Below, piece by piece: positions 4,038-37,636 of a stretch of DNA of 37,953 nt. Every line of letters starts with the position of its first letter. Within the stretch, counting starts at the first letter, position 1. Origin of the DNA: a virus; the IMG/VR virus record IMGVR_UViG_3300025759_000249, positions 1 to 37,953 of that record. One strand, written 5' to 3'. Position numbers and translations under genes: made by a program. The notes beneath the pieces were generated by a model. The model was not told where the DNA came from. It made no database searches and saw nothing but the letters and a program-made list of their open reading frames with translations.

Positions 4038-5948
4038 ATGCCACTAACCAAACTTCAGTTCCGCCCAGGTGTCAATCGAGAGACTACCTCTTACACCAAT
4101 GAGGGCGGTTGGTTTGACGTAGACAAGGTACGCTTTCGCTTTGGTATGCCTGAGAAGATTGGTGGTTGGCAGAAGTTTACGCCTGCATCATATCTTGGCA
4201 CAGCAAGAGCTATGCACCCTTGGGTTGGTTTGGATAACAGCCGATTGATAGGCATTGGCACATCTCTTAAATATTACATTAACCAAGATAGTGGCTTGTT
4301 TAATGATGTTACTCCTATAAGAAGCACAACATCAGCAGGAGATGTAACCTTTTCTGCTACTAACGGTTCATCAGTAATTACCGTAACAGACACAGCGCAC
4401 GGTGCAGTGGTAAATGATTTTGTAACATTTAGTGGAGCTGCAAGTCTGGGCGGCAATATAACTGCTGCGGTATTAAATCAAGAATACAACATTACAGAGA
4501 TAGTAAACGCTAACAGCTACAAGATTGCTGCTCGTACCGCAGGCACAACTATAGCCAGTATAACTGTAGATGGGGCATTATCCCCAACACCTGTCACCGC
4601 AAACTCCTCTGATACAGGTAATGGCGGCAGTTCTACAGTGGGAACTTATCAGGTAAGTGTTGGGTTAGATACAACTGCAACAGGTGCAGGTTGGGGTGTA
4701 GGTACTTGGGGTCGTAATGGTTGGGGTCAGGCAGCTACTACGCCGATTGTTACAAATACCTTGCGTATTTGGTCACATGATAACTTTGGTGAAGATCTTC
4801 TTATTAACGTGCGTAATGGCGGCATATACTATTGGGATAAAACGAGTGGTCTCAGTGCTAGAGCGGTAAGCTTGGACTCTCTTGCAGGATCTACTACTGC
4901 ACCTACAATTGCTAAACAGATTATGGTTTCTGACAGAGACAGGCACATCATAGCGTTTGGCTGTGATTCAGAACTTAATCCTGGAGTGCAAGATCCTTTG
5001 TTGATACGTTTCTCATCTCAAGAGTCTTTGACTGATTGGGCAACGAGACCCGATAATACGGCAGGGGAACTTAAAATAGGTTCTGGGTCTGAAATTGTTG
5101 CAGCCGTAGAAACAAGACAGCAGATACTTGTGTACACAGACGAGTCTCTCTATGCCATGCAGTTCTTAGGGCCACCGTTTACATTTGGTGTAAACCTAGT
5201 GTCAGAAAACACTACAATAATGGGGCCGTTATCTGCCGTAGCTGTAGAAGACAACGTGTTCTGGATGGGTTTAAAAGAGTTCTACTCTTATGGCGGTACA
5301 GTGCAGCGTTTACCATGTACAGTTCGAGACTTTGTCTTTGATGACTTCAACCTCTTGCAAAGAGAGAAAGTCGTAGCCGCAACCAATACAGCATTCTCTG
5401 AGATATGGTGGTTCTATCCTTCTGGATCTAGCGACAACAACGATAGATATGTAGTTTATAATTACGAGCAACAGGTTTGGTATTATGGAGCACTTTCAAG
5501 AAGCTATTGGATGGATCGTGGTATCTTCGACAACCCTATTGCAGCAGGGCCAAACAACTATCTCTACACTCAAGAGTCTGGATTTGATGACGATGGGTCT
5601 GCATTTACTGCATATATTGAATCAAGCCAAATGGACATAGGAGACGGAGAACAGTTTGCTTTTATCAAACGTATGATACCTGACTTAACCTTTAGAGGAT
5701 CTACAGCGGGTAGCCCATCTGCTAATCTAACAGTAAAAACCAGAAACTTTCCTGGGGGCAATTACTTACATACTACATCTAGCGCAGTAACAAAGTCTGC
5801 ATCTGTGCCTGTAGAACAGTTTACAGATCAAGTTCACCTACGATTACGTGGGCGTAGTTTTGCAATGCGTATTGAGTCTACAGCTTCTGGAGTTGGTTGG
5901 AGGTTAGGTTCTCCAAGGCTTGATATACGCCCTGATGGGAGGAGGTAG
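4038..5948 (+). CDS. Tail hub/nozzle-like protein (P22 gp10 / T7 gp12-like)
   Basis: A 636-residue structural protein. The N-terminus (PGVNRETTSYTNEGGWFD, then KVRFRFGMPEKIGGW) and the middle region (RFSSQESLTDW, then a TDESLYAMQFLGPPF stretch and LPCTVRDFVFDDF) resemble the phage stabilisation/tail-hub family typified by P22 gp10, with a possible relation to T7 gp12. Those proteins are propeller-like and form the tail channel below the portal. The assignment is by remembered family pattern, not a search. A Thr/Ser-rich insert lies at about residues 95-215. ATG at 4038 follows the previous stop by 7 nt with AGGTGA upstream. The stop overlaps the next start by one base (TAGTG). Confidence 0.6.
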   Translation: MPLTKLQFRPGVNRETTSYTNEGGWFDVDKVRFRFGMPEKIGGWQKFTPASYLGTARAMHPWVGLDNSRLIGIGTSLKYYINQDSGLFNDVTPIRSTTSAGDVTFSATNGSSVITVTDTAHGAVVNDFVTFSGAASLGGNITAAVLNQEYNITEIVNANSYKIAARTAGTTIASITVDGALSPTPVTANSSDTGNGGSSTVGTYQVSVGLDTTATGAGWGVGTWGRNGWGQAATTPIVTNTLRIWSHDNFGEDLLINVRNGGIYYWDKTSGLSARAVSLDSLAGSTTAPTIAKQIMVSDRDRHIIAFGCDSELNPGVQDPLLIRFSSQESLTDWATRPDNTAGELKIGSGSEIVAAVETRQQILVYTDESLYAMQFLGPPFTFGVNLVSENTTIMGPLSAVAVEDNVFWMGLKEFYSYGGTVQRLPCTVRDFVFDDFNLLQREKVVAATNTAFSEIWWFYPSGSSDNNDRYVVYNYEQQVWYYGALSRSYWMDRGIFDNPIAAGPNNYLYTQESGFDDDGSAFTAYIESSQMDIGDGEQFAFIKRMIPDLTFRGSTAGSPSANLTVKTRNFPGGNYLHTTSSAVTKSASVPVEQFTDQVHLRLRGRSFAMRIESTASGVGWRLGSPRLDIRPDGRR

Positions 5949-6468: not shown

Positions 6469-7583
6469 TGCCCGATTATGGTACTACAAGTGGTTCAGGT
6501 ACAGGTGCATCTGATAAATCTTATACAAGGGGTTCTGGCTACACTGCTAGTTCTTCTAAATCAGGTTCTAAAGCCTCGCAAAGAAGAAAAAAATTAGCAA
6601 AACAACTTGAGGCTCAAAAAGCCGCATATGAAAAACAACTTGCAACAGACGCTGCAAAGGCTCGTGAAACTTTTGCAAAAAAACCAACGACAGCAACAAT
6701 ATCAAATCAAGAACAGCAGCGTTTAGCGGCTGAAGCTGCAAAGGCTCGTCAAGCTTTACAAGACTTAGGTGGTATGACAGGTAACGTACCAGTAAGTTCT
6801 ATAAACAAGAGCAGTGCATCAAGACCATCCACAGCGTATGATAGTTCTAGTCAACAAACATCTAAAATAATAACGGGAGAACACTCCAACAAAACCGCAT
6901 TTGAAAAAATGCGAGATGATTTTTTAATGGATCTTGGTTTCAAAGATAAAGACGCAGATTATTACTACCGATTGTCTGATCGCACAAAAGCAGCGCAAGA
7001 CAGGGCAAAAGATGCAACAAGAATCACTACAACTGGTTCAGATGAACGTACAAAAACTATACCGCCAAGACCTGAAGAAGAGGTAGATCCGTTTCGTCCA
7101 CCTGTTTACCCACCCGTAATGCCACCAGAAATAGTTGATCCGTTTCGTCCGATCAACCCTCAATACCCAGGAATGTACGGCGGTCTAGGTGCTTTTGGTT
7201 ACAGCCCTGCGTTAATGCAGTTTGAATCGCAACAAGGTGCAGGTCAGGTTCCGTATTATATGGCGGCAGCTAGGAACGCTCAGACTCCAAACATGAGTCC
7301 TGCATTTATGCATGCTGCTAGGAACTACGACATACTAGGCGGAATGCAAAGAACTATGCCTCGCCCTATAGAAATGATGAGCGCAGCAGAACGTGCTCAG
7401 ATTGCAGGCATGAGTAACTTCAGCACACCTAACTACAACTCACCATACGATCAGTTTAATTTTTTTAGTAATATGGTTAGTAGCGGGATGCCTACACAAG
7501 TACCTACAGGCCCTTCTGGTAAAGGAGCAAGGCCAAGTGGCGTTGGTTTAGGAGCTTTACTTGCAAGTGGGGTGTTTGGGTAA
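6468..7583 (+). CDS. Pro/Gln-rich putative structural protein with coiled coil
   Basis: This 371-residue protein is not recognised as a named family. Residues 1-35 are Ser/Gly-rich. Residues about 38-70 are a Lys/Gln/Ala-rich coiled-coil segment, partly echoed at about 85-100 (RLAAEAAKARQAL). The middle carries a Pro-rich stretch with VDPFRP twice (near residues 206 and 223). The C-terminal half is rich in Met, Asn and Tyr. The composition resembles other low-complexity virion proteins of this operon. The ATG at 6468 overlaps the previous stop and the stop overlaps the holin-like gene. A minor virion or internal protein is inferred from context. Confidence 0.55.
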   Translation: MPDYGTTSGSGTGASDKSYTRGSGYTASSSKSGSKASQRRKKLAKQLEAQKAAYEKQLATDAAKARETFAKKPTTATISNQEQQRLAAEAAKARQALQDLGGMTGNVPVSSINKSSASRPSTAYDSSSQQTSKIITGEHSNKTAFEKMRDDFLMDLGFKDKDADYYYRLSDRTKAAQDRAKDATRITTTGSDERTKTIPPRPEEEVDPFRPPVYPPVMPPEIVDPFRPINPQYPGMYGGLGAFGYSPALMQFESQQGAGQVPYYMAAARNAQTPNMSPAFMHAARNYDILGGMQRTMPRPIEMMSAAERAQIAGMSNFSTPNYNSPYDQFNFFSNMVSSGMPTQVPTGPSGKGARPSGVGLGALLASGVFG

Positions 7584-24986: not shown

Positions 24987-25202
24987 TTAATGTTGTTTTA
25001 TAGGAAGTACATCTTCCCCTTCATTGTCACGTTTTGTCAACGCTTTTTCTATCGCTTCTACATTAAAACGATACGTATCCCCTGCCTTAATATAAGTCTC
25101 TCTGGGAATATGCCCTTCACGTAGCCACTTTCTAGTTGTCGATACAGATATACCAAAATAATCGGCAACCCTATTTATGTCTACATACTGTTTCTCTGTC
25201 AT
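24987..25202 (-). CDS. Excisionase-like helix-turn-helix DNA-binding protein
   Basis: A 71-residue protein with the winged-helix pattern of the excisionase/MerR-like HTH_17 group: YVDINRVADYFGISVSTTRKW as helix-turn-helix (about residues 6-26), then LREGHIPRETYIKAGDTYRF as the wing. It should bind DNA, either as a transcription regulator or as a recombination directionality factor. No integrase is visible in the window, so a regulatory role is at least as likely. ATG at 25202 overlaps the previous stop by four bases with GAGGA upstream. It is the most obvious DNA-binding candidate in the window for the 18-bp dyads, but nothing links them directly. Confidence 0.75.
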   Translation of the reverse strand: MTEKQYVDINRVADYFGISVSTTRKWLREGHIPRETYIKAGDTYRFNVEAIEKALTKRDNEGEDVLPIKQH

Positions 25203-25637: not shown

Positions 25638-27173
25638 TTAGTCAAGTAGTTCTTTATACAAATCGATAATTTTTGTATGTACGTCTATTCTGTTGTCCAA
25701 CAGTCTGTATATACGCTGTTCAGCGGCTGAACCGTAAAGCTGAATGACAGTACATTTGTGCTTCTGCCCAGAGCGATGGACACGTGCATTCGCCTGTGCG
25801 TATGTCTCTAATGACGATGTTGGACCCCACCACACAACAGTATTTGCTGCTGTTAACGTGACCCCATGGGCTGCGGCTTGTGGTTGAATTATAAGCACTT
25901 GAGGGTTGGGCGTGGTTTGAAAGGAGTCAAATATTTCAGTACGTTTATTCGCAGATACGTCTCCTCGTATGATCCCACACGTTATCCCGTCCGCCGTTAG
26001 TTTGTTAGCTAACAAGTCTATGGTGTGCCGAAACGGAACAAACACTAAAACTTTTTGGCTGCTCTCGTCTACCGCTTCTTTTAAAACTTTGTACCGATTA
26101 GATATGTCAAACTCTAGTGTCTCGCTATCGTCAGTATACACTGCACCTGATGATATTTGTAACAGCTTGTTAAGCACGATGGCTGCATTGACAGCGGTGA
26201 TGCTTTCATCTTCTACCTGCATTACCATCTTCTTACGTAATTCTTCGTAGTATTTTATCTGCTGTTTAGTCATTTCGACTTTACGCTTGACGTAAACCAT
26301 ATCGGGTAAGTCTAAACATTCTTCTTTTGTAAACCGAATCGCAGGTTGCAATACTTCGTGCACTATTTGACTAGCGTTTTCTTTCGGCATCCACTTAAAC
26401 TGTGTAACCTTCCACATTACCATATCTCTAAAAGAACCAAAGAAACGTGGAACATTTAACGGGTTAATTAGCTTTGCTAACCCATACGCATCTAGAGGTG
26501 ATTGTGCCGCAGGTGTACCTGTCATCATCCACAGCCAAGTATCATCAGAGATGAGTTTTTTGAGGGTCTTCCATCTTTTAGTCTGTGCATTTTTATAGTG
26601 CGTTGCTTCGTCTACAATTATACAATCAAACCCACCATTCAGTATTTCTTCTTTTACAATATCAACACCGTCATAGTTTATAATTACAAACTCTGCTCCA
26701 CTATTAATTATGTCTGCACGTTTCTTTTTACTACCGTAAGCTATGTTTACAGAACGGTGCATAGCAAAGGAAAACAAGTCTGCACGCCATGCGCTATCCA
26801 TGATCGAGAGCGGGCAAACTACCAAAACACGCCTTATTTGTTTTTGAGTCATTAGATAGTCAGCCGCCCATATCGCTGATGCGGTCTTACCTGTGCCTTG
26901 TTCGTTGAAACAAAAAGCACGTTTATTCATCGTCAAAAACTCTGCTGTTTTCTTTTGGTGCTTGTAAGGTTTATATTGCCCCGTCCACTTGTAACGTTTG
27001 CTAATAGGTGAGGGTACGTTTATATTTAAACTTTTTAGTTTTAGGGCTTCAAACATACCCCATTTGACTACTACTTCATTCATCGACAACTCCTTGCTGT
27101 TTGGTATTACCGTTGTGACCCTTTTAGGGTTACGCAAATTCAACAGGACTGCCTTATCCCGAATAATCTGCAT
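25638..27173 (-). CDS. SNF2-type DEAD-like helicase/ATPase
   Basis: A 511-residue superfamily 2 ATPase. Visible motifs are Walker A EQGTGKTAS (Lys96), motif II DEATHYKN (188-194), motif III MTGTPAAQSPLDAYGLA, and in the second lobe WWGPTSSLETYAQANARVHRSGQ, whose ending matches SNF2 motif VI. Such phage proteins translocate on double-stranded DNA and may act in replication or recombination, including fork remodelling. Length is ordinary for the compact phage form without extra domains. ATG at 27173 is preceded by GGAGAACAAC. It lies between the HNH-like gene and the coiled-coil gene in the replication operon. Confidence 0.85.
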   Translation of the reverse strand: MQIIRDKAVLLNLRNPKRVTTVIPNSKELSMNEVVVKWGMFEALKLKSLNINVPSPISKRYKWTGQYKPYKHQKKTAEFLTMNKRAFCFNEQGTGKTASAIWAADYLMTQKQIRRVLVVCPLSIMDSAWRADLFSFAMHRSVNIAYGSKKKRADIINSGAEFVIINYDGVDIVKEEILNGGFDCIIVDEATHYKNAQTKRWKTLKKLISDDTWLWMMTGTPAAQSPLDAYGLAKLINPLNVPRFFGSFRDMVMWKVTQFKWMPKENASQIVHEVLQPAIRFTKEECLDLPDMVYVKRKVEMTKQQIKYYEELRKKMVMQVEDESITAVNAAIVLNKLLQISSGAVYTDDSETLEFDISNRYKVLKEAVDESSQKVLVFVPFRHTIDLLANKLTADGITCGIIRGDVSANKRTEIFDSFQTTPNPQVLIIQPQAAAHGVTLTAANTVVWWGPTSSLETYAQANARVHRSGQKHKCTVIQLYGSAAEQRIYRLLDNRIDVHTKIIDLYKELLD

Positions 27174-28150: not shown

Positions 28151-29961
28151 TCGCAATCCCCATAAGACTTAGCTGTTCCACTTTCACAATCAACAGGTAA
28201 GCCTTTCGCCCAACTAGGCGTCCACCGCATACATGTCTCTACAAATGCCTGTGCTTCTTTTACTTTGTTATCTTCTACACAGCATACAATACTATCGTGT
28301 ACGGTCAACACAACTCTGTACCTCTTAGCTATCTTTAACATCTGTTCGCCAATTATACAACGTGCTATGGCTTGGCAAACATTCTCTATCACCTTCCCAC
28401 CATAGATTTTGTTTCGACCTCGCCGCACCTTGTATGTGTACTCATCACCGTCATAACTTAGATCTTCATAAAACAATGGAAGTCCAGACGGTAAGACCAA
28501 AGCCTTGTTACTGGCATCAACGCCAATTACGCCTTTGCGCCCAAACGCCACGGCTCTACCGTTAGTCAACTGACTAACCATGTACTGTGCATCGCGCCAC
28601 AGCTTACTAATCTTAAAGTTCGACTGACGGTAAATATTAATTATGCGTCGGGCTTCATCGGGAGACACTTCATACCCAAACGTCTTTAGTTGTGTTGCAA
28701 ACTTCTCTGCACCCATGCCATAACCTGCACCGAGTATGGTAGTCTTACCAACGAAACGCTGATCTTTTGTAACGTCCTCTTCTGGACAGCCGTATATACG
28801 CCCTGCCATTTTGACGTATACATCTTCGCCGTTAGTGAACTGACTAACAAGATCGTCTTGTTCTGATAACCATGCAAGAACTCGCGCTTCAATCTGAGCA
28901 CTATCAGCCTCGACTATTGTATAGCCTTCGGGTGCAACAATGGCTTTCTTTAGTTTCTTCGCATTGACCCCACGACTTGGTAGATTTTGTAGGTTAATTT
29001 TATCAGCTCCACCCCATCTACCTGTATGCGCGGCGTAGTATCTCACAGGTACAGGGAGCTTACCACGTTGAGCGATCCCTATAAACCTGTCTGTACGTGT
29101 CTCTTCTAGTGTGGACTTGTTGCCTAGCCGTGCCGAAACCAAAGTTTGTACACGATCATCCTCATGCTCAAGTAATTCCTTAAACCCTTCGTCGGACTTA
29201 GCAAACGCATACGTGTCTTTACCTGTTGTCAGACTTACCTTCATCGGTGGTTCGACATCAAACTCACGTAGCATATCAGCAAACTTCTGATTTGACATCA
29301 GGTCTTTCTTGTCGGTGACGTTGGCATCTTCTAATAGTTTTTCTTTACGTGCCTTTGTGTCCTCAAGGTGCTGCTGCAACAACCCAAGATCTAACTCAAG
29401 TGTGGGTTCGATAAACATACGCAGAGACAAGTCTATCAGCTTTAACTCTTGTCGTGGAAACTTGACTCCCATCTGACTGAATAACTGAAACGTCAGGTCT
29501 ACATCGTTCTTGGCATACTGTCCGTATCTTTTTATCTCTTCGTCGGTGAAATCGGCACGGTGCTTGCCCTTGGCATTCTGCACCTCAGTGCCTTTGATAC
29601 CTACGCCGTACCTCTCGGCTACAGCTTTGAGTGATGCGCTTTTCTCTACACCATGCAATGCACGTGACATATACATAGTATCAAACCATATCTTTGGACT
29701 AACACCGTATCGCCACTTTAGTATCGCTCCGTCAAACATCGTGTTGTGACAGAGTATACCACACGCAGAGAAGTCTATGTGTGATAACAGACGTTTGATT
29801 TGTCCAGGACTATCTAACCACACCGTAGAACCATTGTTCTTTTTGATAGCTAAACCAATAACCTCAAATTGTTCATCACGCACATACTCCTCTGTTGTCA
29901 GCTTGGACAGTGAGTAATGTTGATCATAGTAAGTTTCAAAGTCTAGAGTATAAACGTCCAT
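28147..29961 (-). CDS. Family A DNA polymerase with 3'-5' exonuclease domain
   Basis: A 604-residue replicative polymerase. The exonuclease domain has LDFET (Asp7, Glu9), HNTMFDGAIL and YGQYAKNDVD. The polymerase domain has RYYAAHTGRWGG, motif A EADSAQIEAR (Asp353), motif B RFVGKTTILGAGYG (Arg402, Lys406, Tyr414) and motif C TVHDS (His555, Asp556). The residue corresponding to E. coli Phe762 is Leu410. No 5'-nuclease or DnaJ-like insert is seen. ATG at 29961 is preferred over a GTG one codon earlier because it shares its first base with the stop of a 33-residue gene (TGATG) and has GGAAGAG upstream. Two copies of the 18-bp dyad lie inside it. Confidence 0.93.
   Translation of the reverse strand: MDVYTLDFETYYDQHYSLSKLTTEEYVRDEQFEVIGLAIKKNNGSTVWLDSPGQIKRLLSHIDFSACGILCHNTMFDGAILKWRYGVSPKIWFDTMYMSRALHGVEKSASLKAVAERYGVGIKGTEVQNAKGKHRADFTDEEIKRYGQYAKNDVDLTFQLFSQMGVKFPRQELKLIDLSLRMFIEPTLELDLGLLQQHLEDTKARKEKLLEDANVTDKKDLMSNQKFADMLREFDVEPPMKVSLTTGKDTYAFAKSDEGFKELLEHEDDRVQTLVSARLGNKSTLEETRTDRFIGIAQRGKLPVPVRYYAAHTGRWGGADKINLQNLPSRGVNAKKLKKAIVAPEGYTIVEADSAQIEARVLAWLSEQDDLVSQFTNGEDVYVKMAGRIYGCPEEDVTKDQRFVGKTTILGAGYGMGAEKFATQLKTFGYEVSPDEARRIINIYRQSNFKISKLWRDAQYMVSQLTNGRAVAFGRKGVIGVDASNKALVLPSGLPLFYEDLSYDGDEYTYKVRRGRNKIYGGKVIENVCQAIARCIIGEQMLKIAKRYRVVLTVHDSIVCCVEDNKVKEAQAFVETCMRWTPSWAKGLPVDCESGTAKSYGDCE
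28561..28578. repeat. 18-bp dyad copy A, GTTAGTCAACTGACTAAC
   Basis: A perfect inverted repeat with no mismatch across all nine base pairs. It lies in the polymerase gene, where the - strand reads Val-Ser-Gln-Leu-Thr-Asn. Confidence 0.85.
28831..28848. repeat. 18-bp dyad copy B, GTTAGTGAACTGACTAAC
   Basis: A near-perfect inverted repeat with one arm mismatch, 270 bp from copy A and also inside the polymerase gene (Val-Ser-Gln-Phe-Thr-Asn). This stretch precedes a conserved polymerase phrase (GEDVY), so protein constraint may contribute. Confidence 0.7.
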
Positions 29962-30062
29962 CACTCTTCCAGTAAACTCAACAAAAGTTTTGCTTTATGA
30001 TCACCGCGTTTTGTCATGTCTCGTAAATATTCTAGAAGCATATCTCTAAGTTCATCAGTCAT
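29961..30062 (-). CDS. 33-residue small gene upstream of DNA polymerase
   Basis: A short helical, charged protein beginning MTDELRDMLLEYLRDMTKR and ending LLSLLEE. It is too short for standard gene calling, but three signs support it. GGAGG lies 6 nt before its ATG at 30062. Its start overlaps the preceding stop by 8 nt. Its TGA shares a base with the polymerase ATG (TGATG), leaving no gap. It may mainly couple translation into the polymerase gene or make a small regulatory peptide. No family is recognised. Confidence 0.65.
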   Translation of the reverse strand: MTDELRDMLLEYLRDMTKRGDHKAKLLLSLLEE

Positions 30063-30522
30063 TGTCTTCCTCCGTGAGATTACTAACAACTTCGCCGCCA
30101 CAAGCCATGTACCCACAGGCGTCTACCCAGTTGTCTATGTGTATGGGGTTAGAATGTATGCGAGCAATCTTCAGTAGTGCCATCATTGCTGCAACATCTT
30201 CGGTCTTTATGAAATCAACCAGTCCAAGATGCGCGTTCCAGTACAGAGCGATGCGTCTAAAGTTATCTTCCATATCGCCATGATCCGCTGCACGATCCTT
30301 CGTGACGTAACCTTTGGCTGTATCCAGTACCTTTGCACGATCCCACGTTTGTTTTATAGGCACTTCTTCGCGCCAGTTTTCTGATCCGATACGTGATATA
30401 AGGTTCTTTACAAAAGGTATATCCACGTCACACGCGGCTGCTACCTCGGCGTTTTCGGCTTGCCTGTTTTTTAGAAGATACTCCCATACCTTCTCTTCCT
30501 TCTTCGACATACTCATCTCCAC
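30055..30522 (-). CDS. DUF6378-like phage protein
   Basis: A 155-residue protein. The N-terminal part (residues 5-50) looks like a small helical DNA-binding region (VAAACDVDIPFVKNLISRIG). The C-terminal part has the pattern TAKGYVTKDRAADHGDMEDNF, then RIALYWNAHLG, EDVAAMMALLKIARI and HIDNWVDACGYMACGGE, which matches the DUF6378 phage family as I recall it. Biochemical function is not known; the conserved Asp, His and Asn residues suggest a nucleotide-related helical fold. GTG at 30522 has AGGAG 6 nt upstream; ATGs at 30516 and 30510 are alternatives. It precedes the 33-residue gene. Confidence 0.65.
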   Translation of the reverse strand: MEMSMSKKEEKVWEYLLKNRQAENAEVAAACDVDIPFVKNLISRIGSENWREEVPIKQTWDRAKVLDTAKGYVTKDRAADHGDMEDNFRRIALYWNAHLGLVDFIKTEDVAAMMALLKIARIHSNPIHIDNWVDACGYMACGGEVVSNLTEEDND

Positions 30523-30628
30523 GTTGTTCTCCTTTTTGCCATGGTGGTGGCGATAGACTTACGCTATCTTTGCCAAGCATTACTGATCTGCGTCTGTATC
30601 CACAGATTTCTTTTAATGTTACTTTCAT
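30428..30628 (-). CDS. Small overlapping hypothetical protein
   Basis: A 66-residue frame starting at ATG 30628 inside an ATGA overlap with the previous stop, which is the usual junction of this operon. It fills the ~100-bp space before the DUF6378-like gene, then overlaps that gene by 95 nt in another frame. The start (MKVTLKEICGYRRRSVMLGK) looks protein-like; the overlapping end is Arg/Ser/Gly-rich and could be incidental. No strong SD site is seen. It is either a real small gene with an overlapping tail or a relic. Confidence 0.4.
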   Translation of the reverse strand: MKVTLKEICGYRRRSVMLGKDSVSLSPPPWQKGEQRGDEYVEEGREGMGVSSKKQASRKRRGSSRV

Positions 30629-30813
30629 ATTCTTACACCGTTTATTCTCATCCTAGAGACAAACGACTTTAACTCTTCTCGCGCACGATACAAGTCCTGT
30701 TCTGTATTACGCGGTCTATCTCTTCGCCCAAGTTCGTCTTGTAACCTGTCAACTTGTTGCTTTAAGAAACGATACTCATACTTGAGCGCAGGGCTTAACT
30801 GCTCATCCCCCAT
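30625..30813 (-). CDS. Small coiled-coil protein
   Basis: A 62-residue, highly charged helical protein with LKYEYRFLKQQVDRLQDELG and YRAREELKSFVSRMR, likely a coiled coil. It starts at ATG 30813 with GAGGAT 8 nt upstream, overlaps the preceding gene by 11 nt and the following frame by four. The function is unknown; such proteins often act as small adaptors in phage replication operons, but nothing here shows this. Confidence 0.6.
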   Translation of the reverse strand: MGDEQLSPALKYEYRFLKQQVDRLQDELGRRDRPRNTEQDLYRAREELKSFVSRMRINGVRI

Positions 30814-31057
30814 CTGGTCTTATCCTCGGTTTTACGTTGATTTCTTTCATACCAGACGTAAACGGTGTGCGTCTGCAATACATCATGATCTCTTTACCAT
30901 ACGTGTCTGCAAGTATGTCGTACAGATCATCCATCACTCCATTGCCCATAGCTTCGTAACATTCGTACTCGCTTGGGAATATTACGCTCGTTGATACGTC
31001 CTGATTCTCAACAACGTATTCGATAATTAATAATGTGTAAAATAATTTAAACATCAT
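30803..31057 (-). CDS. Small protein with N-terminal membrane/signal segment
   Basis: An 84-residue protein that begins with a hydrophobic stretch (MMFKLFYTLLIIEYVV) suited to a signal peptide or anchor, followed by a soluble part with two Cys residues (ECYEAM and MYCRRT) that might form a disulphide outside the cytoplasm. ATG at 31057 overlaps the previous stop (ATGA) and has GGAG upstream. A role at the membrane, for example in exclusion or host takeover, is speculation. Confidence 0.6.
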   Translation of the reverse strand: MMFKLFYTLLIIEYVVENQDVSTSVIFPSEYECYEAMGNGVMDDLYDILADTYGKEIMMYCRRTPFTSGMKEINVKPRIRPDGG

Positions 31058-31269
31058 TTTTTCTCCAGTTGTTTGGTAATAGGTTTTGCTTGCTCAGTTT
31101 TAATTTTAGTACAAGCTGTAGTTACAAAACTTTTAATTCTTTCAGCCTCATCTAAAGTAAAATTTTCTGTATAATCTCCGAGTTGAATACCTAAATGCAT
31201 TGGTATATCCTCATCGTAAACAAGAGTTATATGTTCTCTCAGTGCAAGTTTGCGTGTCTCTCTAATCAT
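31054..31269 (-). CDS. Small hypothetical protein
   Basis: A 71-residue protein starting MIRETRKLALREHITLVYDE, with a helical Lys-rich C-terminus. ATG at 31269 is chosen over a longer in-frame extension because GGGAGA lies 6 nt upstream and the extension would overlap the 43-residue gene in another frame. It overlaps the next gene by ATGA. No family is recognised. Confidence 0.55.
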   Translation of the reverse strand: MIRETRKLALREHITLVYDEDIPMHLGIQLGDYTENFTLDEAERIKSFVTTACTKIKTEQAKPITKQLEKK

Positions 31270-31279
31270 TTTATTCTCC

Positions 31280-31411
31280 CTAAAATGGTGGTTCTTCTCC
31301 ATCGAAAGAGGGCAACCAAGCAACATGCTCTTCTCGCTGCACCTCCTCACGTTCTTCACACAGACCCATCTCTCTGAGAAACAGGGCTAGGTCTTCTGGT
31401 ATGTCATCCAT
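31280..31411 (-). CDS. 43-residue acidic small gene
   Basis: A short acidic protein starting MDDIPEDLALFLREMGLCEE and ending WLPSFDGEEPPF. Support comes from a strong GGAGG 8 nt before ATG 31411, an 8-nt overlap with the stop of the nuclease gene, and clean filling of the gap to the next gene. The compact terminal motif looks conserved. Function unknown. Confidence 0.6.
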   Translation of the reverse strand: MDDIPEDLALFLREMGLCEEREEVQREEHVAWLPSFDGEEPPF

Positions 31412-31685
31412 TAAATAATTCCTCCACTGTATTGATATTATCTTCGTTTATTACTAGAGCGATGCCACCTGCTCCTTCGATTTGATCAAGGTTCACTTGT
31501 TGCAATGGTGTAGGTTTGTTTTTACCTGCCTTGCATTCGATACCGATGAACCGTCCATCATGACATGCTATGATATCAGGCACACCGCTGCGTCCGTACC
31601 CACTTGTCACTGGATAAAAGAAATACGCTTCATGTTGTTTTAGTATGGCAACGACTTTCTTTTTTACTTTAGCTTCTGGTGTCAC
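31404..31685 (-). CDS. VRR-NUC family nuclease
   Basis: A 93-residue single-domain nuclease of the PD-(D/E)XK superfamily. The core GVPDIIACHDGRFIGIECKAG gives Asp37, Glu50 and Lys52; Glu4 in MTPEAKV is the usual helical acidic residue, and TPLQQVNLDQI provides the Gln-bearing helix. Stand-alone VRR-NUC proteins of this size are common in phages and are thought to cut branched or structured DNA, such as Holliday junctions. GTG at 31685 has AAAGGAG 7 nt upstream. Dyad copy C lies 16 nt ahead of the start, between it and the preceding gene. Confidence 0.87.
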   Translation of the reverse strand: MTPEAKVKKKVVAILKQHEAYFFYPVTSGYGRSGVPDIIACHDGRFIGIECKAGKNKPTPLQQVNLDQIEGAGGIALVINEDNINTVEELFNG

Positions 31686-31701
31686 TGTTTGCTCCTTTGG
31701 T

Positions 31702-31719
31702 GTTAGTCACGTGACTAAC
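31702..31719. repeat. 18-bp dyad copy C, GTTAGTCACGTGACTAAC
   Basis: A perfect 18-bp palindrome in the 68-bp gap before the VRR-NUC gene, just upstream of its SD site. As RNA it could form a 7-bp stem with a four-base loop. Lying outside any gene, it cannot be explained by protein constraint. Confidence 0.9.
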
Positions 31720-31753
31720 GTTGGTAACTGGCATAATTTGAGGGCGGTGAAAA

Positions 31754-32071
31754 TTACTTCCACTCGCCCCCCTCTATATAGAAAACGTGTCTGTCTCTAC
31801 GCTCGCCTACTCCTTTAATAGGGGAAGTGATCATAAGCGCAGCAATCTTAGATTGCATCCACTGTGGCAGATCACTAACCGAATCATATTCTCCACGTAT
31901 CTTCTCACATATACCTATACATACCACATCAACTCTATTCGAGGTAGGTTGTATGTAAACACGGTAAGAGTTGTCGTCAACCCATGAGAAGTATTTATTT
32001 TTGATTATACGTAGTTCACGCCGAGAGCGAATGCCACTTCGCCCGAACCTCTCATGAAACAGAGTAGACAT
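31754..32071 (-). CDS. Hypothetical phage protein
   Basis: A 105-residue protein with a basic N-terminus (FGRSGIRSRRELRIIKNKYF), a central beta-like region (YRVYIQPTSNRVDVVCIG) and a C-terminal phrase DLPQWMQSKIAALMITSP. It is not assigned to a family. ATG at 32071 overlaps the end of the previous gene by 20 nt; the SD match is weak, so a slightly later start is possible. It ends 68 bp before the VRR-NUC gene. Confidence 0.55.
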   Translation of the reverse strand: MSTLFHERFGRSGIRSRRELRIIKNKYFSWVDDNSYRVYIQPTSNRVDVVCIGICEKIRGEYDSVSDLPQWMQSKIAALMITSPIKGVGERRDRHVFYIEGGEWK

Positions 32072-32948
32072 AGTAAATATTACTCACTTCTTCTGGTCTG
32101 AAACCCACACCATCGCAGAACTGACCTTGAGGTAGAATATTAAGTTTCGCTATGCCTTCGGCTAAATGCTGTGGAAGATCCTCTGAGGTATACCATGTGC
32201 AATTCGCACCATCCCAATAGTATTTATCTGTCGTCACCTTAGAAATAACACCGAACTTGTTATCACCAGAACGTGTCTGTGTAACATACACTACGTCTGC
32301 CAGGTGACGCTCACGCTTACGGTTTCTGTAGTCATCTAGTTCTTCAAACATGGTAACAAGATTGAGTTTAAACTCCTGATCCACAAACTCATAACCTGTC
32401 TGTAGTAAGTTTCTCAACTCTATCTCCAACGGAGATTTGTTTTCCACCCCATCATTTGATATGAAGTCTCGCGCTATCTTGTCACGACTTTTTGTAGACG
32501 CTTCGTGTCTTGTCTCTTTTATGGTAGCGAACTTTCGTCTGGCATCGTTGAATGTTTCGTACACTATATCTTCAACAGAGTACGGCACTAGATACCTACA
32601 AGCGTTCTTCACTGCTTTGTCAAAGTTAGTGGTAGCCGCAGAGTACATCCGATCACTATGTGCATATTTGCCGTTGTGTATCTTACGCGAAAACACTGTG
32701 TACATCTTTTTCTTTTCACCAGTATAGGAATAATTTTTGTACCCAACGTATCCCAAAGCATAGGGTTCTTGTTCACGATAGATATAATATTCTGAACCTC
32801 CACCATTTTTAGACTGATACTTAGCACCGATCTTTTTGCATACCGCCTGTGCTAGTTTGAGGCTTTCATAGTTGACGCTTTCGCGGTCTTCGTTTGCCTC
32901 AAATTCGTCTGCTAGTTTAAGCACTTCTGCTATTGTTGTTGCTCTCAT
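32052..32948 (-). CDS. Hypothetical phage protein, 298 residues
   Basis: A charged, Tyr-rich protein with no recognised catalytic motif. Features are an N-terminal helix (TIAEVLKLADEFEANEDRE), a YYIYREQEPYALGYVGYKN beta-like stretch, a central helical region (about residues 105-165) and a C-terminal VVYVTQTRSGDNKFGV segment. GGAG lies 8-9 nt before ATG 32948. The 136-bp leader upstream contains dyad copy D and a weak imperfect hairpin at 32972-33008. It lies in the cluster of unknown genes that precedes the nuclease. Confidence 0.6.
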   Translation of the reverse strand: MRATTIAEVLKLADEFEANEDRESVNYESLKLAQAVCKKIGAKYQSKNGGGSEYYIYREQEPYALGYVGYKNYSYTGEKKKMYTVFSRKIHNGKYAHSDRMYSAATTNFDKAVKNACRYLVPYSVEDIVYETFNDARRKFATIKETRHEASTKSRDKIARDFISNDGVENKSPLEIELRNLLQTGYEFVDQEFKLNLVTMFEELDDYRNRKRERHLADVVYVTQTRSGDNKFGVISKVTTDKYYWDGANCTWYTSEDLPQHLAEGIAKLNILPQGQFCDGVGFRPEEVSNIYYVYSVS

Positions 32949-33071
32949 AATTTTTCTCCAATGTTAAGTTAAGTGTGCAGCCACTCGCAAGGTAACGAGC
33001 CTTACACTGACGCGGTTAAGAAGAATAAACAATATCCGAAACTTCAACGCACTCACGCCTTACGACCAAGT

Positions 33072-33089
33072 GTTAGTCAGTTGACTAAC
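33072..33089. repeat. 18-bp dyad copy D, GTTAGTCAGTTGACTAAC
   Basis: Arms are perfect (GTTAGTCA/TGACTAAC) around two central bases. It spans the end of the 353-residue gene, whose TAG stop lies inside it, and the spacer beyond, so almost none of it is coding. Confidence 0.88.
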
Positions 33090-34146
33090 CTTTGGGTTTT
33101 GTCATAAATCCTGCATTTCTATTTATGAAGGAATTAAACTTGCTCCTCATTTTCTGTAAGTCCTCTTTTGTCTCGACATGCTTTACTGGATACTTGTACT
33201 CCCATCCAGTTGCTCCATAATCATAGTCTGCAATCTGAGTTGTAAACGAGACCCAGTAGTTCAAACGCATGGGATGTTTCTCATCACGTATTATCTCACG
33301 TGCACTTGTCGGTGTGAAATCATGATGTGAGTAGCCATCCTTGCCCCCATAGTATGAACGTAACTCCCTTGATTTATCTGTGTTATACTCACTACTCAAA
33401 GGTAGCAGAGGTGACATTGCCATACCCCACTCAAAGAATTTATTGATATCATCTTTGTATTTTTTCTTTAGGTCTTTGTTCACCTTTGGCTTTTGTGGTG
33501 GCAGCTTACCAGATACTGGATCACGTACCCAAACGTCTCCAATCTTAATGAATACCAACGCAGAGTTGTCGTCTTTGGTTTGCATCCAATCTTTAAAGTA
33601 ATTCTTATCCTTGAATTGCTTGTAGTACCCACGCGGCACAGTTTTACACTTAGCTAGATAATGTGCGTTCACTGTTGTTAGTCCACGCAGAGAGACGTAT
33701 TGAAGTGAGTTACCCATCACAAAAGTCATCCCACGTGGCATGTGTCTGTGTAAGAACGCATAGCGACCCATGGAATAACTAGAGTTACTACCAATACAAT
33801 TTCGTATCTGAACTGTCTCAGTCCCATCCTTGTGCTTACGCCAGACAATCGGTGCATAGTACTCCATCTTACCAAGCCTGTCCCAATGGGTGGTTGTAGT
33901 CTTAGTCTTGTAGTCATACTCATGTATCCCATAAGGTGTGAACTTGTCGTCACCTTCGTGATACCCATCGCTCAATGCGTAGCAGTTTCGGCTTATCTTA
34001 ACGATACGCTCCCACTTACGGTTACGATCACCGATAGGTCTGATGTCGTCCTCACGTATGTGAAGTTTAGATACGAGAGGCTTGATGTTGTTGTACCACG
34101 CCTCGACCTCGTCGAACTTTAGAAAATTTGAATATGTTAGTGCCAT
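33085..34146 (-). CDS. Hypothetical phage protein, 353 residues
   Basis: A Tyr/Lys-rich protein. Recognisable stretches are KISRNCYALSDGYHEGDD, TTTHWDRLGKMEYYAPIVW, HRHMPRGMTFVMGN and SYYGGKDGYSHHDF. They do not match a family I know. It lies between the VWA/microprotein genes and the 298-residue unknown. AGGAG is 6-8 nt before ATG 34146. The TAG stop sits inside dyad copy D. A role linked to the neighbouring AAA ATPase/VWA module is possible only by position. Confidence 0.6.
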   Translation of the reverse strand: MALTYSNFLKFDEVEAWYNNIKPLVSKLHIREDDIRPIGDRNRKWERIVKISRNCYALSDGYHEGDDKFTPYGIHEYDYKTKTTTTHWDRLGKMEYYAPIVWRKHKDGTETVQIRNCIGSNSSYSMGRYAFLHRHMPRGMTFVMGNSLQYVSLRGLTTVNAHYLAKCKTVPRGYYKQFKDKNYFKDWMQTKDDNSALVFIKIGDVWVRDPVSGKLPPQKPKVNKDLKKKYKDDINKFFEWGMAMSPLLPLSSEYNTDKSRELRSYYGGKDGYSHHDFTPTSAREIIRDEKHPMRLNYWVSFTTQIADYDYGATGWEYKYPVKHVETKEDLQKMRSKFNSFINRNAGFMTKPKG

Positions 34147-34158
34147 TGTTTTTCTCCT

Positions 34159-34251
34159 TTACATCCACCAATTAAGTTGTATTCCTGCGGTGAACACAGC
34201 AACAAGTATCGCTGTGAACACCAAGATTAATTTGTCCTGCCAGTCCATCAT
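34159..34251 (-). CDS. 30-residue single-pass membrane microprotein
   Basis: The frame starts MMDWQDKLILVFTAILVAVF and ends LNWWM, with one predicted membrane helix (about residues 8-25) flanked by Trp and charged residues. Its ATG at 34251 overlaps the preceding stop (ATGA), with GGAGG 7 nt upstream, the same junction type as its neighbours, and the next gene's SD follows directly. This is strong evidence for translation despite the length. Function is unknown. Confidence 0.65.
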   Translation of the reverse strand: MMDWQDKLILVFTAILVAVFTAGIQLNWWM

Positions 34252-35483
34252 TGTATGTCCTCCGAATCCACATGTAAGACTGCGCCATGATCTGGTGTGG
34301 CGTTAGGATTATCAACGATCACCCACAACACAGGATGATCCCACTCACCCCAACCACCATACAAGTGTCCGTCTGTGAATACGATTGAGGCTTGCGGTTC
34401 GATCTTATGTTGCTTGAGGTACTCGGGCACGCACGTCACGTCAGTGCCACCGCCGCCGACAGGTTTTGTTTTAGATGCAACGTCAGCTATTTCAGCGCCC
34501 ACGTACTTCTCATAGCCACATACCTGTGTGTCCCAATAGCTTACATGCAGCTCGTCAGGCTTAACTTGTTCACAGATTGCAGCCAACTCACTGATCATGA
34601 TCTGCTGTTCACGTGCGCCAATAGACCCAGACATGTCGTTGTGTTCTGCGAGACACGTCACCGTTTCTTGTACACCGCTCGGCATAGCAATACGCTTACT
34701 GATGTATCTACGGTTTAGTCTTTTGAAAGTACTGAAGTCTTTGCCTGTGCATGTATTCTGAACAAACTCACGCAACGCTTGACGCCAATCGACTTTTGTT
34801 TTTAGCAACTCGTCAAGGTCACGATTACCACCGCTCCCAACCTTGCCTGCAATCGTACTGCCTTGGCGCACCGCCTCGTCGATATCACGTTCCAACTCAC
34901 GCTTATCTTCCTCAGTCATTTCTTTGGCTGCTTCCCAATCGTGATCATCGAATGGTTGTTGACCTTGCTCGTTAGTCGGTTGACTAACACCGCCGCCACC
35001 GTCACCGCCACGACCACCGTCACCACCGCCATTGCCTGGGGGTAACAAGTTAAACACTTCCTGTGTACTCATACCCACGTATTGTCTATCGTAACACCCG
35101 CCTTCCAAGACGCCTGTCATTGTAGCAAACCCATCTTGACTGAACTCGTCTACAATCTTGATGTTGATTACATGGTCTGCTGCTCTGTTGGTACGATCTG
35201 CGTCTTTCTCCCAGAGATGTTTCCACGTGGTTAGATGCTTGAACAATTTGTGGTACACCTCATGTAGCACAAGAAACCGCAACTCGGCATCGTTTAGACT
35301 AGCCACAAACACACGGTTGTAGAACTCGTCTTTACCGTTTGTGTATGCGGTTCGATGTTTTGGATTGTCGGTAATCTCACGCCTACCGATCATCAGCACC
35401 GCAGATAGATACGGTGCTTTGTCCATGATTTTGACAACGGCTTTTGACAGCCGCTGTTCTTCTGTTAGATTTCCTAGAAACAT
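34248..35483 (-). CDS. VWA metallopeptidase-like protein (CobT/DUF2201 type)
   Basis: A 411-residue protein with two domains. The N-terminal part has a zinc motif HEVYH (His74, Glu75, His78), as in the DUF2201 metallopeptidase-like domain. A Gly-rich linker (about 149-166) and an acidic helical region follow. The C-terminal VWA domain carries the metal-site motif NDMSGSI (Asp283, Ser285, Ser287), TDVTC and IVFTDGH. VWA proteins of this kind work with MoxR-type AAA ATPases, and one is encoded directly upstream. GGAG lies about 8 nt before ATG 35483, with dyad copy F just ahead of that. Dyad copy E falls in the linker. Confidence 0.82.
   Translation of the reverse strand: MFLGNLTEEQRLSKAVVKIMDKAPYLSAVLMIGRREITDNPKHRTAYTNGKDEFYNRVFVASLNDAELRFLVLHEVYHKLFKHLTTWKHLWEKDADRTNRAADHVINIKIVDEFSQDGFATMTGVLEGGCYDRQYVGMSTQEVFNLLPPGNGGGDGGRGGDGGGGVSQPTNEQGQQPFDDHDWEAAKEMTEEDKRELERDIDEAVRQGSTIAGKVGSGGNRDLDELLKTKVDWRQALREFVQNTCTGKDFSTFKRLNRRYISKRIAMPSGVQETVTCLAEHNDMSGSIGAREQQIMISELAAICEQVKPDELHVSYWDTQVCGYEKYVGAEIADVASKTKPVGGGGTDVTCVPEYLKQHKIEPQASIVFTDGHLYGGWGEWDHPVLWVIVDNPNATPDHGAVLHVDSEDIQ
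34971..34988. repeat. 18-bp dyad copy E, GTTAGTCGGTTGACTAAC
   Basis: Seven-base arms are perfect around a four-base centre. It encodes Val-Ser-Gln-Pro-Thr-Asn in the flexible linker of the VWA protein, where protein constraint should be weak. Confidence 0.87.
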
Positions 35484-35500
35484 TAGTTGTTCTCCTCTCT

Positions 35501-35518
35501 GTTAGTCGGCTGACTAAC
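35501..35518. repeat. 18-bp dyad copy F, GTTAGTCGGCTGACTAAC
   Basis: Seven-base arms are perfect. It fills half of the 34-bp gap between the AAA ATPase gene (whose stop it touches) and the VWA gene, 17 nt before the VWA start and directly ahead of the SD site, as copy C is for the nuclease gene. Confidence 0.9.
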
Positions 35519-36609
35519 TACACTTTATCTGCTGCAAACATGTAGTTGTTTGCCATTGCCCAATCGGTGAATTTCTTGTTAGTCATCACCATCGATTGCT
35601 TGCTGTACTTCGGTGAAGCAACGTTGTTAGCAAACAAGCCCTGTGTCTCAGGGTCTAGCCGATCAAGATAATCCATCCACGCATTGAGCCAGTCTTTCTC
35701 CAGACTTGCCAGTGTACGATACACGACCATGACTTTTGCTGCCGCCGTATCAGGCACAAGCGCATTCTTCGGATCGTCTTTGATAGACTGAAGCGTAGGT
35801 AGTTTGTCGGCTAATCGTATGAACGCCATGAGATCCTTCGCACCGCGCTGACCGATTGTACCTATCAACGCTGCCGTCAACTGTACGTCACTCAGGTGTG
35901 CACGTTTCTGTAAGATGCGCGACGCTTTCTCACCTGAACGTGGCGTGAAGAAATGCTTACGCCCCACGGCTTTGGGATGAAAGATAAACTCGTTCTCGTC
36001 TGGGTCTTTCACATTCTCCCACGGATAGAACAACTGTGGATTGTCCTTGACCCACGCAAGTAAGAGGTGATCAATACCATTACTGATACCCCATTCGATC
36101 CAGTCCATATGACTTAGCTTACGCAGAGTAATCTCTGTGATACGATTGTACTGATGCGGTTGCAGTATGTCACCGACACCCTCACCACTTTTGTTAGTCG
36201 TCGCAAAGACAATACTATCTGGGTGAAGTTTGTAGCCACCCATCTTACGCTCGTACATGAATAAGTTGAGCGCATTCTTGACCGACGGATTAGCCTTGCC
36301 ATACTCGTCGATCATAACAATGACAGGCTTGTTTAGGTGTAAGCCCATCTCTTCGTTAGGCACAAACCTAACGTACCCATCGTTTGCTGAGTTAAGATCA
36401 GGCAACGCCATGTCGCCCAAGTCTTTGTTTGTTGCGTCAAAGTACACAGGTACGTGTTCTGGAAACCGCTCCGATAGCATATCGAGTAGCGATGATTTAC
36501 CTTGACCCATATCACCAGTGATTAGGAAAGTGATATCTTGACCCAGTTCTGCAAGTAGTCCTTCGGTTTCGTACAGATCTAGGTTGTACATGTTTTGTGC
36601 TGTATTCAT
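35518..36609 (-). CDS. MoxR/CobS-type AAA+ ATPase
   Basis: A 363-residue ATPase. Walker A is GDMGQGKSS (Lys38), Walker B is VIVMIDEYGKA (Asp101, Glu102), and ATTNKSGEGVGD provides the sensor-like segment, followed by HQYNRITEITL. Such ATPases remodel partners together with VWA proteins, as in CobS-CobT and MoxR-VWA pairs. The VWA partner is the next gene and a DUF3150-like protein the previous one. ATG at 36609 is preferred to a TTG five codons earlier because GGAGG lies 8 nt upstream. The stop touches dyad copy F. The phage substrate is unknown. Confidence 0.85.
   Translation of the reverse strand: MNTAQNMYNLDLYETEGLLAELGQDITFLITGDMGQGKSSLLDMLSERFPEHVPVYFDATNKDLGDMALPDLNSANDGYVRFVPNEEMGLHLNKPVIVMIDEYGKANPSVKNALNLFMYERKMGGYKLHPDSIVFATTNKSGEGVGDILQPHQYNRITEITLRKLSHMDWIEWGISNGIDHLLLAWVKDNPQLFYPWENVKDPDENEFIFHPKAVGRKHFFTPRSGEKASRILQKRAHLSDVQLTAALIGTIGQRGAKDLMAFIRLADKLPTLQSIKDDPKNALVPDTAAAKVMVVYRTLASLEKDWLNAWMDYLDRLDPETQGLFANNVASPKYSKQSMVMTNKKFTDWAMANNYMFAADKV
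36355..36372. repeat. Degenerate 18-bp dyad copy I, GTTAGGCACAAACCTAAC
   Basis: Same length and outer arms as the family, but with six-base symmetric arms; position 6/13 is G:C instead of T:A, so the symmetry is kept by a paired change. It lies inside the AAA gene (Val-Arg-Phe-Val-Pro-Asn). It may be chance. Confidence 0.4.
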
Positions 36610-36631
36610 AATGTTGTCCTCCAAAGACTGT

Positions 36632-37636
36632 TTATATATCTAATGACGGTAGGTTAGCGATTGCTTTGTCCACCGCCTGTTTGGTTTCGGCACGGAAGTA
36701 GTCGTCCTCACGCAGTGCATCAGGTGTGACTCCCATGAGTGCCTCTTCTAATTGATCAGCCATAGCTGTCATTCGCGTCGAGTTAGCCACGTTACTAACA
36801 CGCAGCAGTTCGACCATATCGGTGACGTTTGACACAAGCGTATCGTTGAATTTCTTTTTGTCCTCTTTGCTCTGATAGTCGAGACGTTCGGACATATTCT
36901 TCAACACCTTGTACAGACGTTCCCATATGTCATTCATTGCCTGTTTTGTTTTCTCCTCATAATAGTTGACATAGCTAGTTTGTAATTCTGCGATAGCTTC
37001 TTTCGGCAAGTCCACACGGAAGTCACCGCTCTCTGGTAGAGGTGAGTAAGCAATCGCGCATTTGAATTTTTGACGTAACTCGTCCACTGATGGATAGTCT
37101 TTATCATCGTACAGTTCGCCAAGATGAACTTGCGCCTCAGCAATGCTAAGATTGTAATCATCTATAAACGTGTCTACACGTGCATAAAACTCAGTTTGCA
37201 GCATAGTCAATTCACCATGATACTTCATGTACTGCGCTGTCGGTAACAGCCTCGCGCCTTTATCTGCCCACGGCATAGTCATACGTGTATGTATGCGGTG
37301 CATCAAACCTGCGTGGTCAATGATTGCTTTAAATGCATCACTGTTTGGCAACAACTTTTTATGTACGTTAGCTGCGCCACGCTCGGCATTGTTCGACGCA
37401 GCGATTTCCGCTGACGCTTGCTTGTCGTGTGCACGTCCTTGCCACTTCGATATGTTCACAGTCACAAGCATTGCGCTTGATGAAAGTGTTGCGATGTTGT
37501 TAGCCAGTTGGCTAACGCTTTGCATTAGTTCGGCTTTACCTTCGCCCATTGCTCCGTCTACATAATAATCTTTCGATAGTTGTGAGTGCGTAGCATGAAC
37601 CGCTGCGAAATCTATTGCTGTGTCTTCGTATTTCAT
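36632..37636 (-). CDS. DUF3150-like protein
   Basis: A 334-residue, mostly helical protein. The features VNISKWQGRAHDKQ near the N-terminus, LPNSDAFKAIIDHAGLMHRI, MPWADKGARLLPTAQYMKY, KDYPSVDELRQKF, SGDFRVDLP and a long C-terminal helical region match the DUF3150 family as I recall it. That family is found beside CobS/MoxR-type ATPase and VWA genes in phages and bacteria. Its role is unknown; it may be a substrate adaptor. ATG at 37636 overlaps the previous stop (ATGA) with GGAG upstream. Dyad copies G and H lie within it. Confidence 0.7.
   Translation of the reverse strand: MKYEDTAIDFAAVHATHSQLSKDYYVDGAMGEGKAELMQSVSQLANNIATLSSSAMLVTVNISKWQGRAHDKQASAEIAASNNAERGAANVHKKLLPNSDAFKAIIDHAGLMHRIHTRMTMPWADKGARLLPTAQYMKYHGELTMLQTEFYARVDTFIDDYNLSIAEAQVHLGELYDDKDYPSVDELRQKFKCAIAYSPLPESGDFRVDLPKEAIAELQTSYVNYYEEKTKQAMNDIWERLYKVLKNMSERLDYQSKEDKKKFNDTLVSNVTDMVELLRVSNVANSTRMTAMADQLEEALMGVTPDALREDDYFRAETKQAVDKAIANLPSLDI
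36782..36799. repeat. Degenerate 18-bp dyad copy H, GTTAGCCACGTTACTAAC
   Basis: Five-base outer arms and four central bases are symmetric, with two broken pairs between. It encodes Val-Ser-Asn-Val-Ala-Asn in the DUF3150-like gene, in the same frame as the other coding copies. A weak member or chance match. Confidence 0.4.
37499..37516. repeat. 18-bp dyad copy G, GTTAGCCAGTTGGCTAAC
   Basis: Eight-base arms are perfect. Relative to the consensus, position 6 is C and position 13 is G, a paired change that keeps the symmetry. It encodes Val-Ser-Gln-Leu-Ala-Asn in the DUF3150-like gene. Confidence 0.8.

Follow-up and report, generated by a model that had tools for sequence, protein, structure and literature searches.

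Repressor sites scattered along a genome are best known from temperate actinobacterial phages, in which they belong to one repressor family with limited specificities. The closest analogue of the system described here is found in Streptomyces phage phiC31, in which about 16 copies of one perfect palindrome, the conserved inverted repeats (CIRs), lie in short intergenic gaps and regulatory regions. The phiC31 repressor binds the CIRs and represses itself. In Cluster A mycobacteriophages, such as L5 and Bxb1, many non-promoter sites serve one phage protein, and, from one related phage to another, site sequence changes along with the repressor (PMC6550527). A monomer binds these stoperators, which are asymmetric 13-bp sequences aligned with the direction of transcription (PMC9283540), and a system contains 20–30 of them (PMC6550527, PMC9283540). 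Outside the actinobacterial phages, the part of the published account of Nostoc cyanophages A-1 and N-1 that presents their putative promoter/stoperator motifs gives 21–43 typically intergenic copies; those motifs differ from the sites described below in being asymmetric, and that part names no partner gene and describes no specificity series (PMC4916379). Here we analyse a family of dyads, GTTAGTC-N4-GACTAAC, in a linear virus record of 37,953 bp (IMG/VR record IMGVR_UViG_3300025759_000249; G000), the whole of which is referred to as the window. The dyads are a system common to a large group of ~60-kb phages, in which every phage has a site variant of its own and an early protein variant to match. 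With a probability of roughly 0.6, they are operators, that is, symmetric sites for a dimeric phage protein that would repress early transcription. This protein is most likely the product of gene1, the first gene of the early operon in relatives, which lies just past the right end of the window.

Structural genes occupy the + strand half of the window, and the early/replication operon occupies the − strand half, at ~20.9–37.95 kb. An earlier reading of the letters alone (the sequence-only reading) had pointed out seven main and two weaker dyads, all nine of which are present (Table 1). GTTAGTC-N4-GACTAAC occurs five times exactly and eight times with at most two mismatches, against a mean of 0.17 for the latter in dinucleotide shuffles. 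In 200 shuffles that preserved each protein and its codon usage, the mean was 0.015 for exact matches and 0.70 (maximum 4) for matches with at most two mismatches. Chance and codon bias are thus ruled out as the source of the dyads, which are confirmed as real. All eight fall within the early operon, at 28.5–37.6 kb, as the sequence-only reading had it; its further claim that the structural half and the region from 21 to 28.5 kb are free of copies holds apart from a degenerate tenth copy at 25996–26013, the place of which is occupied by stronger versions in relatives (GTTAGCCTGTTGACTAAC in G003 and GTTAGCTTGTTGGCTAAC in G025). The sequence-only reading had described fixed arms around four variable central bases; the centre is only partly free, the element proper being a near-perfect 18-bp palindrome, GTTAGTCA-NN-TGACTAAC. 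Five of the eight dyads are intragenic (28561, 28831, 34971, 36782 and 37499), two (33072 and 35501) extend over the end of the upstream gene, at its stop codon, and one (31702) is purely intergenic. The intragenic copies are all in one reading frame because stop codons occupy the other two.

A megablast search of phage records gave no match. With the window polymerase, 80 IMG/VR relatives were recovered. Every relative with sufficient early region carries its own dyad family, and each genome has one such family, at ~5–15 places in the early operon and control region, with several further copies just past the point that corresponds to the right end of the window. The dyad sequence varies between genomes, and within a genome all copies shift in concert. 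Close relatives retain GTTAGTC dyads at the same places, and other relatives carry GTTAGCC-N4-GGCTAAC or GTTGGTC-N4-GACCAAC at almost all their sites together. No loss of sites was seen in close relatives, and more distant ones have a different symmetric element in place. A pattern-free search added GTAGTG-N3-CACTAC, GTTAGTG-N3-CACTAAC, TTTACGGAATTCCGTAAA, GCGTGG-N7-CCACGC and more. All 74 gene1 loci were scanned for dyads, with class labels assigned by rule from consensus half-sites; the top patterns were far above their own shuffles in all but one very short locus, and the short locus L124 held too few sites for scoring. In total, 16 classes were found, including GTTAGTC, GTTAGCC, GTTGGTC, GTTAGTG, GTAGTG and TTTACGG. 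The gap upstream of the VRR-NUC gene holds a GTTAGCC, GTTGGTC, GTAGTG or GCGTGG dyad in other clades, and the gap upstream of the SNF2 gene holds, by clade, GTAGTG-N3-CACTAC, GTTAGTGAACCACTAAC, TTACGGAATTCCGTAA or GTAGCTACAAGCTAC, with none in the window's clade. The change is visible even within coding sequence: the polymerase hexapeptide VSQLTN turns into VSQLAN or VGQLTN to match the dyad class, and consists of other residues where the dyad is absent. One genome, G008, is a mosaic with two dyad types. Among the centres listed for the GTTAGTG class, the middle base is either C, the commoner one on the coding strand, or G.

The gene whose history follows these classes is gene1. In relatives, the region to the right of the window is a control region with the terminase small-subunit gene (TerS) pointing away from the early operon, and gene1, encoding a product of ~170–210 amino acids, opens that operon. 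An iterated profile search gave a set of 97 open reading frames, 74 of them unique. Class changes were counted on FastTree trees. Across 69 loci with gene1, the gene homologous to window gene 36632–37636 (g36632) and a scored class, the 16 classes required 15 changes on the gene1 tree, which is the minimum, and 19 on the g36632 tree. The corresponding counts were 13 for gene1 versus 17 for TerS (65 loci, 14 classes) and 13 versus 16 for the MoxR-type ATPase (55 loci, 14 classes). Recombinants show the same association. The MoxR gene of L125 is 99% identical to that of the window, yet L125 carries a gene1 of the GTTAGCC type and eight dyads of that class. TerS of L130 is 98% identical to that of the GTTAGCC genome L129, yet the gene1 of L130 is of the GTTAGTC type. 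Around gene1, most L130 dyads are GTTAGTC; the two kinds mix at greater distance, and the most remote dyads are GTTAGCC, a gradient that a recent exchange of gene1 would leave.

Almost all loci have a dyad ahead of gene1, at a distance from the −10 element (assigned by eye) that depends on class. In the GTTAGTC class it overlaps the likely −35 element; in the GTTAGCC, GTTGGTC, TTTACG, GGTACGG and GGTAGTCC classes it is in the leader, roughly 19–32 nucleotides (nt) before the start; and in the GTTAGTG and GTAGTG classes it precedes the likely −10 by tens of bases. The position of a promoter element would be constant, and the shift with class therefore argues for an operator rather than a promoter. 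An intrinsic terminator follows gene1 in 26 of 73 loci, compared with 12 of 365 random windows, so that gene1 often looks like a separate unit. Strong examples directly follow gene1 at 4214–4237 of L133 and 5813–5836 of L128; in the latter, a good sigma-70 promoter (TTGACA-17-TATAGT) is found downstream of gene1 at 6515–6543, with a dyad ~50 bp beyond it.

The sites are confined to early genes. In eight near-complete genomes (58–62 kb; G042 and G043 covered to base 60,000), 64 of 65 sites lie in an early region of roughly 20 kb, a count that includes nine sites of G045, a circularly permuted contig that the script had scored as outside; in G045, gene1 is at 47799 (+), the nine sites are downstream of it, from 48832 to 60789, and the primase is at the contig start. 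Among 493 sites in related loci, which include related contigs and are hence non-independent, 136 have a Shine–Dalgarno sequence and start codon within 40 nt downstream, compared with 8.5% of random positions, and the commonest spacing places the dyad 8–9 nt ahead of the Shine–Dalgarno sequence. Dyads at gene junctions (33072–33089 in the window and the SNF2-upstream sites of relatives) often provide the stop codon of the upstream gene, a TAG within the arm, just before the next Shine–Dalgarno sequence. Intrinsic termination was considered as a function and rejected: two dyads fit a loose terminator pattern, and these do so only on the strand opposite to transcription.

Of the roles that the sequence-only reading had proposed, scattered sites for one repressor, comparable to stoperators, is the best supported, in that symmetric sites change together and track one phage gene; their putative effect is repression. 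The fast-changing early protein encoded by gene1 probably binds them to control early genes. In the proposed mechanism, gene1 would be expressed first, and its product would bind the dyad in the promoter or leader of gene1 itself, resulting in autoregulation. As the protein accumulates, it would fill the dyads in gaps and genes along the early operon, where the bound protein would block initiation and elongation and thereby lower early transcription. Recombination would exchange gene1 between lineages, after which the sites would drift toward the new specificity, yielding many classes. We tentatively extend this proposal: gene1 may be a new DNA-binding family with a fold not in the PDB and may form the specificity half of an immunity-like system that lacks a lysogeny module, in which scattered palindromic operators allow each phage to shut down both its own early operon and those of co-infecting phages of its class. 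The specificities, at least 16 of them and swapped by recombination, would then be products of diversifying selection.

Alternative roles were weighed against the same observations. The gene1 product might bind the dyads to organise, protect or segregate phage DNA, or to aid replication, in a ParB/parS-like or nucleoid-like manner, without regulating transcription. The presence of ~5–15 spaced sites over the replication genes, intragenic as well as in gaps, would suit such a role; it is nevertheless unlikely, given that the sites halt at the early/late boundary in near-complete genomes, that a dyad lies at gene1's own promoter or leader and that sites are enriched just upstream of Shine–Dalgarno sequences. 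A function as activator, antitermination-factor or middle-promoter sites, with gene1 switching the operon on stepwise, is similarly improbable. It would account for dyads that are often 5–10 nt upstream of Shine–Dalgarno sequences, for the place of the gene1 dyad in the GTTAGTG and GTAGTG classes, before the likely −10, and for the terminator after gene1 in many loci, but not for the variation by class in the place of the dyad relative to the −10, and promoter-like sites are no commoner in the window than in shuffles.

Whether the dyads act as RNA was judged from the pairing in their arms. Hairpins in the early mRNA, with a role in processing, stability or translational control, had been offered as an option by the sequence-only reading, and perfect inverted repeats with 2–4-nt centres, often just ahead of Shine–Dalgarno sequences, have the appropriate form. 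However, single-mismatch arms among the 493 sites comprise 5 G-U, 20 A-C (coding strand) and 39 transversions, or 5 G-U and 16 A-C after repeated contexts are dropped. An RNA helix predicts the reverse, and the lack of a G-U preference therefore makes hairpins very unlikely, as do centres whose orientation varies at a given place (AAA or TTT in near relatives) and gene1 dyads that lie upstream of the likely transcription start. The direction of the skew toward A-C is unexplained. Single-strand hairpin promoters, like those used by the phage N4 virion RNA polymerase, are more doubtful still: odd classes have 6–7-bp arms and 3-nt centres, and N4-like phages have relatives of the MoxR-type ATPase, but a free loop is absent from even classes such as TTTACGGAATTCCGTAAA, the centres are neither fixed nor oriented and the dyad position is also variable. 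The absence of a match to the RNA polymerase family PF00940 in Pfam adds little, since the control also gave no match. Finally, the HTH_17 protein of the same operon, a small helix-turn-helix protein that had been put forward as the partner, has almost no chance of reading the dyads. It is identical (59/59) in G003, which has mainly GTTAGTC, and G025, which has GTTAGCC, and its predicted recognition helix is the same across the GTTAGTC and GTTAGCC genomes compared; it is therefore not the specificity determinant. A protein of 66–89 amino acids with the motif RNPHVCARW was also rejected as a partner: it partly tracks class among three related classes, and the search for its motif gave nothing in the remaining 13.

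Several observations weigh against repression by gene1. Family and fold searches recognised no DNA-binding family or fold in its product: there was no convincing match among Pfam, PHROG or PDB sequence families, and two AlphaFold models, mostly helical with pLDDT (predicted local distance difference test) scores of 77 and 86, had no significant match in the PDB, nor did the better one in BFVD. The gene1-proximal dyad of some classes is situated far ahead of the likely −10, an arrangement that simple repression less often shows. An apparent correlation with the sites could also arise from linkage for any gene close to them, although nearer neighbours fit worse. The window record ends before its own gene1, and the nearest copy is in L133, which overlaps L005 (100% over 1,651 bp); L005 in turn matches the window at 99.98% identity over 13,959 bp but departs from it at 37517. 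This near-identity stops exactly at dyad 37499–37516, as if two genomes had been joined there by recombination. Moreover, no lysogeny module was found, so that prophage immunity, the usual reason for many repressor sites, is lacking. Neither tyrosine (PF00589) nor serine (PF00239) recombinases were detected in the near-complete genomes with searches whose positive controls worked, G046 and shorter records being fragments, and no close relative of the polymerase was found in 84,980 bacterial and archaeal species genomes (GTDB set). These results suggest a virulent lifestyle; plasmid-like lysogeny is also possible.

The last of these points comes from a cultured phage. Rhizobium phages RHph_TM3_14A, TM27A, TM27B and TM29 share the genome plan and replication genes of the window. 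A dyad scan of RHph_TM3_14A showed that it has its own class, GTTACCT-N4-AGGTAAC, with 18 exact copies of GTTACC-N5/6-GGTAAC versus none in 50 shuffles and ~55 with at most one mismatch; its sites differ from those of the window's group in spanning early and late genes. Despite these ~55 dyads, it has no detectable gene1 homologue, and the gene in the gene1 position, EVB41_028 (242 amino acids), is not detectably homologous. In the same phage, EVB41_076 (L261, 42239–45322), annotated as a putative integrase, aligns with the DUF927 primase-helicase of the window (E about 5e-48), and RHph_TM3_14A should therefore not be called temperate on the basis of that annotation.

Compared with the described systems, the dyads share features with both phiC31 and Cluster A. 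As a positive control, our dyad pipeline recovered the CIRs as CCTACTCACGTGAGTAGG in NC_001978. Perfect inverted repeats of ~17 bp in many gaps, with one at the promoter of the repressor gene (here the putative repressor gene1), are common to phiC31 and the group studied here. In contrast, phiC31 is temperate, with a serine integrase, a repressor of ~680 amino acids and CIRs in structural genes too, whereas the window's group has a gene1 product of ~200 amino acids, sites limited to the early region and no integrase found. A comparison of the gene1 profile with the phiC31 c repressor detected no similarity (E about 1). The likeness to Cluster A is that site sequence co-varies with the phage's own protein, dyad class here following gene1, the candidate repressor. 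The dyads differ from stoperators in being symmetric palindromes of 15–20 bp, a form that implies a symmetric dimer rather than a monomer; they number ~5–15 per genome, and their centres take either orientation. The window's group also shows no lysogeny module. What is new is the gene1 protein, together with a specificity series in phages without detectable integrases. The group, a large set of ~60-kb tailed phages, looks like an independent case of scattered sites and offers a natural series of 16 matched protein/site classes, with recombinants part-way through a specificity switch. It opens to test how a regulator and its dozen or so genomic sites change specificity in concert, and why phages that seem to lack lysogeny would keep stoperator-like sites, be it for early shut-off or for the exclusion of co-infecting relatives. 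If gene1 does bind the dyads, it would represent a new family of DNA-binding proteins whose targets are known.

The early operon of the window encodes a DUF927 primase-helicase, the HTH_17 protein, an SNF2 helicase, a RecB-type exonuclease, a family A DNA polymerase, VRR-NUC, a VWA/metallopeptidase protein and a MoxR-type ATPase. The dyads and the genes that serve as landmarks for them are located in Table 1.

Table 1. Positions of dyads and landmark genes in the window
Feature	Sequence	Position	Strand	Context
Dyad	GTTAGTCAACTGACTAAC	28561..28578		Inside DNA polymerase I gene; − strand reading encodes VSQLTN
Dyad, one arm mismatch	GTTAGTGAACTGACTAAC	28831..28848		Inside polymerase gene; encodes VSQFTN
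Perfect 18-bp palindrome	GTTAGTCACGTGACTAAC	31702..31719		Gap just upstream of the Shine–Dalgarno sequence of the VRR-NUC gene
Dyad	GTTAGTCAGTTGACTAAC	33072..33089		At stop codon of gene 33085-34146
Dyad	GTTAGTCGGTTGACTAAC	34971..34988		Inside VWA/metallopeptidase gene; encodes VSQPTN
Dyad	GTTAGTCGGCTGACTAAC	35501..35518		Between MoxR-type ATPase and VWA genes, just upstream of Shine–Dalgarno sequence
Weak dyad	GTTAGGCACAAACCTAAC	36355..36372		In ATPase gene; L125 has GTTAGGTTCGTGCCTAAC at the same place
Weak dyad	GTTAGCCACGTTACTAAC	36782..36799		In gene 36632-37636; encodes VSNVAN; kept in G001 and G003
Dyad	GTTAGCCAGTTGGCTAAC	37499..37516		In gene 36632-37636
Degenerate tenth copy	GTTAGTTTGTTAGCTAAC	25996..26013		In SNF2-helicase gene
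HTH_17 protein		24987-25202	−	Small HTH protein, same early operon as dyads
VRR-NUC gene		31404-31685	−	
VWA/metallopeptidase gene		34248-35483		
Gene g36632		36632-37636		

No dyad family was found in the stretches of KPP25 and phiA008 that were examined. Pseudomonas phage Rollin (L364, 1–500) carries four near-perfect copies of a AAAGGTAG...CTACCTTT palindrome, clustered at the record start only. In the window itself, the 155-amino-acid protein encoded at 30055–30522 matches PHROG families labelled phosphofructokinase, a label that looks wrong for such a short protein.

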